A stretch of DNA of 64,000 nt from the NCBI RefSeq assembly GCF_024972735.1, contig NZ_CP087723.1, positions 1,426,001 through 1,490,000 on the forward strand, given 5' to 3'. The position numbers and the translations under genes are program-made. Origin of the DNA: Halalkaliarchaeum sp. AArc-CO (GTDB lineage Archaea; Halobacteriota; Halobacteria; Halobacteriales; Haloferacaceae). The notes under the pieces were generated by a model. The model searched no databases. It was not told the DNA's origin and worked only from the letters and a program-made list of their open reading frames with translations. Shown here in pieces: positions 46,524 to 47,935 of the stretch (the first letter of the stretch is position 1; each line of letters opens with the position of its first letter).

Positions 46524-46622
46524 GCGTGTCTTTTCAGCTCCAGATTGTCCCGTATCCAGCGTCGAGAATGACGTGAATTTCGAGTCCAAGCCTCCTCTTC
46601 AGAGTAGTTGCTGAAGTTCTCG

Positions 46623-46666
46623 CGTAAAACTCGTTCGCTGCAGTGCTCCGACGGGGATTTGAACCC
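46623..46666. repeat. Distal copy of the tRNA-Glu 3' end plus downstream flank (attachment-site-like)
   Basis: These 44 bases match 47840-47883 with one mismatch. They comprise 23 bases of the tRNA-Glu 3' end (46644-46666) and 21 bases of its downstream flank. Beyond 46666 the sequence no longer matches the tRNA, so this is a truncated copy, as expected for the distal attachment site of an element integrated at the tRNA. Confidence 0.8.
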
Positions 46667-46943
46667 ACGAACTTCCATCGTTGATTCAGCGACTGTGGGA
46701 CCACAGCGTCGAGGAGTCCGCGACGACCCTCGTCCGTCCCGGATCGGCGATCGGGATGATGGACGACCTCACACTCGATGGATGCGCCCCACTGTACGGT
46801 CGTATTTTACTCCAAGATGTCTATACTCGGGACAACCCCCGGTGTGAGTGGGTACAGGCATAATATTAGCACAAGCTATGCTATGGGGCATTAAACCCAT
46901 ATTTGGGATAAAACCTTTATCTATGCCATGCGAACGGATACTT
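46667..46943. other. AT-rich intergenic stretch inside the tRNA-Glu island
   Basis: A plus-strand frame (46681-46863) is open but matches nothing that I recognise and lacks a clear promoter. From about 46800 the DNA is AT-rich compared with the window (taatattag, attaaaccc, gggataaaacc), ending in the antitoxin promoter. No other feature was found. Together with 46494-46666 it forms the 450-base gap between pdxS and the antitoxin gene. Confidence 0.5.
46915..46922 (+). promoter_or_regulatory. TATA element of the VapBC-type operon
   Basis: ctttatct centred about 26 bases before the ATG at 46944. It supports that start over the in-frame ATG at 46848, which would place the element within the gene. 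Confidence 0.6.
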
Positions 46944-47219
46944 ATGTCAGTAGAAACAGATTCGCACGGGCGGCTGTACCTGTCCTCAGAACTGAGGCAA
47001 AAGTATGGTGAGAGATTTCACGTCGTTGAATACGAGGATCGCCTCGAACTCATCCCTATCGACGAAAACCCGCTTCAGGCAATTCGTGAAGCTGCCGGTG
47101 ACGCATTCGAGGGTGAGTCGGTAGAAGAACTCCGTGAAAGCGCGAGAGAGCAGGCGAAAAAAGATGCTGAAGCGGGATTTGATCGAGGAAAACGCGCAGT
47201 AGAGGATAGCGACGAATGA
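46944..47219 (+). CDS. AbrB/SpoVT-type antitoxin (VapB-like)
   Basis: A 91-residue protein. The first 40 residues (SVETDSHGRLYLSSELRQKYG, then FHVVEYEDRLELIPI) have the swapped-hairpin AbrB DNA-binding pattern; the remainder is a charged helix (REAAGDAFEGESVEELRES, REQAKKDAEAG) that would wrap the toxin. It overlaps the PIN toxin gene by four bases (ATGA). AbrB-PIN pairs are toxin-antitoxin modules in which the antitoxin also autorepresses. Its GC content is visibly below that of its neighbours, consistent with acquisition. Confidence 0.85.
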   Translation: MSVETDSHGRLYLSSELRQKYGERFHVVEYEDRLELIPIDENPLQAIREAAGDAFEGESVEELRESAREQAKKDAEAGFDRGKRAVEDSDE

Positions 47220-47602
47220 CTGCGTACGTTGAGACAGACTATCTCCTCGCCCTCGTCAAAGACTCTGACTGGCTAAAAAACCGAGCAGAGAAAGTGTTGA
47301 AAGAGCAGGACGTCGTCACCTCTACGTATTCATATTTGGAAGTGCTGCTCATCAGCGAGCGCCACGAATTCGACTACACCAAGCTGTTCTCGAATATGCT
47401 TGACGTCGTACCCGTTGAGACCGATGAAGAACGCCAGATTGTGCTAAAGGCTGTGAAATATTTTGAGGAGGGAATGACCGCGTTTGACTCCTTCCACGCT
47501 GCTACTGCCGAAACTCGCGGCCATCCCATCTTGAGCTCTGACAAAGCATACGAGGACGTCGATCCCGAGCGTATTCCATTGGAACCGCCCAAAGACGAAT
47601 AA
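47216..47602 (+). CDS. PIN-domain ribonuclease toxin (VapC-like)
   Basis: A 128-residue PIN-domain protein. The acidic residues expected for metal-dependent RNA cleavage are present: Asp8 (VETDYLLAL), Glu42 (SYLEVLL), Asp91 (TAFDSFHAA) and Asp109 (ILSSDKAY). It lies immediately downstream of its presumed antitoxin. Known VapC toxins cut tRNAs or rRNA; the target here is unknown. The gene belongs to the small lower-GC insert bordered by tRNA-Glu 3' end copies. Confidence 0.9.
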   Translation: MTAYVETDYLLALVKDSDWLKNRAEKVLKEQDVVTSTYSYLEVLLISERHEFDYTKLFSNMLDVVPVETDEERQIVLKAVKYFEEGMTAFDSFHAATAETRGHPILSSDKAYEDVDPERIPLEPPKDE

Positions 47603-47737
47603 ATCTGTTCGAGAAACCGAGGTTTTTGGAACAGCAAATGTAGAATAGTCATTTCATCTGAATCGAATTGCCCTGATGTTTTGGTGAGAAACGTACAATC
47701 TAGTAGAAGTAAACCTCCAGAAGGCGGAAGGAAAGGA

Positions 47738-47759
47738 GTGCTCCGACGGGGATTCGAAC
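47738..47759. repeat. Second partial copy of the tRNA-Glu 3' end
   Basis: Seventeen bases (47738-47754, gtgctccgacggggatt) are identical to the tRNA-Glu 3' end region, continuing with one change (cgaac versus tgaac) to about 47759. Its 5' flank differs from the other copies. This suggests more than one integration or recombination event at this tRNA. Confidence 0.65.
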
Positions 47760-47860
47760 TCGCCGAGACGTGCTCGCTCACTTCGTTCGCTGCGAGCGAC
47801 TCGTCTGCTCAAATCCCCTCTGTGCGCGCTTCGCTCACTCGTAAAACTGGTTCGCTGCAG

Positions 47861-47935
47861 TGCTCCGACGGGGATTTGAACCCCGGTCATTGCCTCGAGA
47901 GGGCAATATGATTGGCCGGACTACACTATCGGAGC
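47861..47935 (-). tRNA. tRNA-Glu, anticodon CTC
   Basis: A 75-base cloverleaf on the minus strand. The acceptor stem GCTCCGA/TCGGAGC is perfect (7 bp) with discriminator A. The anticodon stem is TTGCC/GGCAA with loop CTCTCGA, giving anticodon CTC. The T arm is CGGGG/CCCCG around TTCAAAT. CCA is not encoded and no intron is seen. A TATA-like TTTTAGGGG lies about 45 bases upstream. Its 3' end is duplicated twice nearby, marking it as an integration site. Confidence 0.95.

Follow-up and report, generated by a model that had tools for sequence, protein, structure and literature searches.

A family of hairpin repeats, apparently undescribed and widespread in haloarchaea, was found in which copies of the 3' end of a tRNA gene lie in tandem behind that same gene, and one unit of this family stands behind tRNA-Glu in the 64-kb stretch of DNA analysed here (the window). 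On balance, we favour a composite locus, in which an array of such units behind tRNA-Glu is combined with a decayed element carrying an AbrB/PIN gene pair, the units being a separate repeat family that is turned over by recombination and whose hairpins are matched to their own tRNA. No description of the units was found in the literature searched, which had most subscription papers outside its reach.

The tRNA-Glu(CTC) gene was assigned to 47860-47935 on the minus strand by ARAGORN and to 47861-47935 by Rfam RF00005, and its 3' end lies at 47860. A direct repeat of 49 nt that contains this 3' end (46618-46666 and 47835-47883, 94% identity, 3 mismatches) is far beyond chance. The first-pass annotation had placed the AbrB/PIN operon between tRNA-Glu and a partial copy of its 3' end, which this repeat bears out; it had also stated that 44 bases at the tRNA end recur with one mismatch, as BLAST returned (44 nt at 97.7%), and that the pair is of lower GC than its neighbours, in agreement with 500-nt windows showing 0.48-0.53 within the AbrB/PIN segment vs 0.60-0.70 around it. 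Direct copies of the tRNA-Glu 3' end thus flank the segment at 46642-46666 on one side and at 47737-47759 and 47859-47881 on the other. The distal one (copy 3, 46642-46666, minus strand), obtained by repeat search, is the proposed attR, and the 24 nt beyond it (46618-46641, minus strand), which lie inside the 49-nt repeat and match the spacer that follows the tRNA, are the proposed start of a lost second unit. Copy 2 (47737-47759, minus strand) runs from the T-loop to the tRNA-Glu 3' end and is identical in 22 of 23 nt. It had been noticed before, near 47738, as a third partial copy, and it is indeed present, however not as a loose fragment, as it closes a palindromic unit of 122 nt that recurs throughout the genome; at the same time it would be the attL of the relic described below. 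Within the whole 3.18-Mb genome only these three copies of the tRNA-Glu end exist at up to 2 mismatches per 23 nt, while at 3 mismatches per 23 nt the ends of other tRNAs start to match.

Unit 1 (47737-47859, minus strand; 122 nt) is composed of a spacer, an inverted T-arm (GGGGATTTGAGC), a GC-rich imperfect hairpin and a direct strand reaching from the T-loop to the acceptor end of tRNA-Glu. Its T-arm hairpin, from inverted to direct T-arm, was recovered as a pattern match at 47749-47817 on the minus strand (genome positions 1473749-1473817). The same architecture is found behind other tRNAs, with direct copies of 22-24 nt, and behind tRNA-Gly(GCC) of this genome four units stand in tandem, each closed by a copy of that tRNA's own 3' end. 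The inverted arm also follows the tRNA behind which it lies: in 41 units, which were defined by the direct copy only, the best inverted 12-mer showed 70 mismatches in total to the own T-arm, compared to about 198 for shuffled unit bodies. After permutation of the tRNA labels 120 ± 5 mismatches were obtained (minimum 98) and the observed 70 was reached in 0 of 10,000 permutations, a figure that overstates the number of independent cases, as tandem units of one tRNA are non-independent.

The hairpin is conserved as a structure. In 18 distinct hairpins of subfamily A1, 98.4% of the cells pair and 6 pairs are changed on both sides; the covariation was 0.193 compared to 0.095 for shuffled alignments (0 of 500) and at most 0.049 when slid, and since the A1 hairpins were preselected for intact T-arms, helices 2 and 3 constitute the independent part of this evidence. 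An apex of the form GCGA-NN-GNA-NN-GAGC has two complementary NN stretches in 30 of 31 cases. DNA hairpins with a GNA triloop are very stable, and the apex is a hint, albeit no proof, of a role of the units at the DNA level. By carrying an inverted T-arm that tracks the own tRNA together with a covarying hairpin, the unit differs from a plain duplication of an att core.

Of the 43 tRNA genes examined in this genome, 17 are followed by a copy of their own 3' end at a distance of at most 700 nt, and no such copy lies on the upstream side of any of them; a copy of the end of a different tRNA was seen for 6 of 1738 gene pairs. The corresponding values of the congener are 10 of 42 tRNA genes, none upstream, and 2 of 1638 pairs. 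The loci classed as unoccupied include some with degraded units that fall short of the copy threshold, e.g., Ala(CGC) and Arg(CCT) of the congener (G001), and one 104-nt intron-bearing tRNA called Gly(tcc) by ARAGORN may be of another identity, which leaves the counts unaffected. The occupied tRNAs mostly differ between the two congeners, so that occupied and unoccupied loci exist side by side. The T-arm hairpin pattern, searched without a tRNA reference, was detected in 155 of 195 genomes of the haloarchaeal order, the reversed pattern was detected in none, and the hairpin pattern was absent from 124 other members of the phylum (0/124). With a stricter pattern, at least 120 stretches were obtained from a collection of 84,980 species, and for all those listed the record title names a haloarchaeon or a haloarchaeal MAG. 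Among the matches listed, 111 of 127 hairpins lie at most 260 nt downstream of a tRNA on the same strand, and 94 of 113 copies fit that tRNA with at most 1 mismatch over 21 nt.

It is slightly more likely than not that haloarchaea possess a lineage-specific, undescribed class of palindromic repeats in tandem, which derive from the 3' end of the preceding tRNA gene and are kept matched to it, which turn over fast between species and whose copies are able to act as landing sites for integrases. It appears rather improbable that the units instead encode a functional RNA transcribed behind the tRNA, the inverted arm of which competes with the tRNA T-arm or the hairpin of which guides 3'-end processing. 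The strong hairpin covariation and the fixed position behind tRNAs on the same strand would fit such an RNA; however, the presence of a unit at a given tRNA varies between the congeners, hence no tRNA needs a unit, and no Rfam family covers it (at the gathering score the tRNA itself matched and the unit did not). A possible, though doubtful, alternative is that the units are minimal non-autonomous integrative elements mobilised in trans by tRNA-targeting tyrosine recombinases. The copies begin at the T-loop GTTC, and integrases are known to target the T stem-loop as well as the 3' end (PMC8371274); furthermore, a common body is found behind different tRNAs, and the occupied and unoccupied loci differ between the congeners. 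In contrast, both arms fit the local tRNA, so that a transferred att would need later correction, no circular form was seen, and units are rare in viral contigs. Virus-borne units were rejected, as just 20 loci were obtained from 2.9 million viral contigs, most of them with a match in a single orientation.

Next to unit 1 the segment looks like a decayed integrase element of tRNA-Glu, of which the left end survives and the integrase is lost. As pairwise comparison of left ends with integrase elements was too weak, a profile HMM was used, for which seven other genomes each contributed the sequence that directly follows tRNA-Glu (in G061, the unit copy). Its sole significant match in the window is 47736-47652 on the minus strand (E = 4.9e-5; next best 1.7), which begins one base past the copy at 47737 and remains the top match whichever single member of the profile is omitted; the profile is shallow, several genuine members scoring weakly when omitted, and 5 of its 7 sequences precede an integrase found by tblastn, while L038 and L040 are similar and showed no integrase match there. 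It is this sole match just past copy 2 that lets the segment be read as the relic of an element, and 47652-47736 would be its left end. The segment is without an integrase ORF, as the first-pass annotation had seen, and for this reason it is classed as a relic and not as an element. Integrase-bearing elements at the same tRNA, for which that annotation had proposed to search, do exist in relatives: PF00589 integrases lie 160-170 nt downstream of tRNA-Glu in the congener and in other haloarchaea. In the congener G001 the integrase (E = 4.9e-13) follows directly behind tRNA-Glu at a distance of 165 nt, in G009, G037, and G055 related integrases were located by tblastn 160-167 nt downstream, and in G061 the integrase is located behind a unit. 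In G009 (L349, positions 1-2668 downstream of tRNA-Glu) a tRNA-end copy of 37 nt stands behind the integrase element of 2.6 kb, and after this copy the same left end restarts in the manner of a tandem pair.

Excision through the distal copy would, as read from the sequence, restore an intact tRNA-Glu. The comparison covered 99 genomes with G001 as the only congener; there, tRNA-Glu and the amidohydrolase side of the locus are present and no AbrB/PIN pair is found at that tRNA. A clean empty site for the 1.2-kb segment was not found in this congener, as its tRNA-Glu holds another element and pdxS is 499 kb away from the tRNA, so that the segment spans a rearrangement breakpoint. Some further features of G001 were observed. 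Right behind its tRNA-Glu (L042 9736-20000, L057-L059) the GC content is low (0.52-0.59) over about 80-90 kb, a stretch that opens with two integrase-like ORFs, of which the first only has a Pfam match. The congener also encodes two pdxS genes about 152 kb apart (L043 9715-10620 and L044 9981-10886), both with 92.7% protein identity to pdxS of the window, the gene order of which is kept at L044 only.

The gene pair within the segment consists of an AbrB-like presumed antitoxin (46944-47219, plus strand) and a PIN-domain protein, a presumed VapC-like toxin (47216-47602, plus strand), the ORFs of which overlap at ATGA and are kept together in relatives. The PIN ORF matches PF01850 (E = 8.1e-9), and an alignment with nine relatives shows no variation at its acidic residues D8, E42, and D91. 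The AbrB-like ORF was assigned by ORF order, synteny and alignment, its match to MraZ being weak and below the cut-off (E = 0.014). The description as a VapBC-like pair agrees with the PIN domain, its catalytic acids and the overlapping order, the AbrB assignment being tentative. A phmmer search of the PIN protein against PDB sequences gave no meaningful match and PADLOC matched neither AbrB nor PIN. Between the distal copy and AbrB lies a 60-aa ORF (46681-46863, plus strand) that resembles the end of a broken gene; it is without a Pfam match and has weak DNA similarity to G030 (66.7% over 129 nt).

The closest relatives of the pair, with 79-83% DNA identity, were found in G068, G062, and G030, i.e., in three other genera, two of which belong to other families, and neither among these nor among the more distant relatives does any adjoin tRNA ends of such kind. 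An AbrB/PIN pair bound as cargo to tRNA ends was rejected, as the relatives are located elsewhere. Instead, the pair appears to be a wandering cassette, which need not have arrived with the integrase element and may be a late cargo of it, given that its relatives lie away from tRNA-Glu ends. In G062 (L046 824-8264) 16 tRNA genes are located about 1 kb from the AbrB/PIN relative, 15 of them within less than 3 kb and on one strand. With these relatives in varied places and lacking tRNA ends, the G030 copy beside apparent TnpB-type transposase ORFs, and multi-copy unit arrays common in the genome, it is conceivable that the pair entered a pre-existing unit array independently, by transposition or illegitimate recombination, the flanking copies being unrelated to its arrival; we hold this to be unlikely, as the sequence just past copy 2 fits the left end of an integrase element and not the usual spacer of a unit. 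The original proposal of a tRNA-integrated element pared down to its addiction module is hence retained in part: the left-end match, the integrases hosted by tRNA-Glu, the congener lacking AbrB/PIN there and the distal copy restoring the tRNA agree with it, whereas the AbrB/PIN relatives are not linked to tRNAs and the third copy belongs to a separate repeat family.

A parallel to the layout proposed for the window was found at tRNA-Gly of Natronolimnohabitans and Natrarchaeobius, where the unit copies are followed by fragments of decayed integrases and, past these, by another copy of the tRNA end. The decayed tRNA-Gly elements L296 and L319 have in common a pair of genes, one for a DUF7342 protein that has an HTH-like match and one for a protein that matches no Pfam family. 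In G018 a 14.7-kb integrase-bearing interval lies directly behind the tRNA, with a second partial tRNA-end copy 142 nt past the distal copy. The elements of G018 and G009 adjoin the tRNA itself and not a unit copy, so that a decoy-site model, with unit copies as the constant landing point of elements, is not general; together with the elements found behind units, they indicate that both the tRNA and the unit copies may be used. A 1,065-bp candidate element at tRNA-Asp of Salinadaptatus was discarded, as it ends in an apparent second tRNA-Asp gene.

In the composite reading, a few tRNA-end hairpin units would have stood in tandem behind tRNA-Glu, and a tyrosine-recombinase element of the tRNA-Glu-targeting haloarchaeal kind would have come to sit at the copy that separates unit 1 from the beginning of unit 2. 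In this order of events, which is tentative as it is drawn from single genomes, the integrase and the larger part of the element would later have disappeared, and its left end, the mobile AbrB/PIN pair as a presumed toxin-antitoxin operon, and the distal copy of the att site would be what remains. The units themselves are likely to gain and lose tandem copies by recombination between the direct tRNA-end copies of 22-24 nt, by which both tandem growth and clean loss would be explained. The match of the inverted arm, and thereby the register of the hairpin with its own tRNA, could be kept by hairpin-templated (quasi-palindrome) correction. To our knowledge, there is no excision product, transcript or enzyme known for the units.

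About 40% of the tRNA genes of the genome carry copies of their own end, often in tandem and interleaved with covarying hairpins, and among the genomes sampled the hairpin is present in most haloarchaea and, outside these, in no member of the phylum. This raises the questions of what copies tRNA ends in both orientations, and if the units are selfish, regulatory or protective against integrases. As a second tRNA-end copy is usually read as the mark of an att site, the units may also have an effect on how genomic islands and the ends of proviruses are called next to tRNA genes.

In comparison with known systems, the AbrB/PIN pair resembles VapBC-type operons with an AbrB-type antitoxin and a PIN toxin in gene order, overlap and the PIN domain with its acidic residues, and it differs in that the AbrB assignment relies on weak profile evidence and toxicity is presumed. 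Integron attC arrays are tandem imperfect palindromes and possible recombination sites. The units resemble them as tandem imperfect palindromes that may serve in recombination, whereas their repeat is tRNA-derived and neither an integron integrase nor regular gene cassettes were seen. Recurrent integration at haloarchaeal tRNA-Glu with truncated downstream copies has already been described (PMC3119063), as have the T-loop or T stem-loop and the tRNA 3' end among archaeal integrase targets (PMC8371274). The known tRNA-Glu elements and proviruses, such as those of Hfx. volcanii (HVO_2815A), Nab. magadii (Nmag_0465) and relatives, are alike in their insertion behind tRNA-Glu and in the truncated tRNA-end copy at the far side (PMC3119063). 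However, they span 5-48 kb compared to 1.2 kb here, in intact ones the integrase adjoins the tRNA while the segment has none, and here a hairpin unit separates the tRNA from the element. The MITEs, PATEs, and SMRs of Haloquadratum (PMC3119063) are, like the units, short, non-coding, palindromic and multi-copy; in contrast to these, the units sit behind tRNA genes, both of their arms copy the local tRNA end, and in their tandem arrays it is the tRNA end that is repeated.
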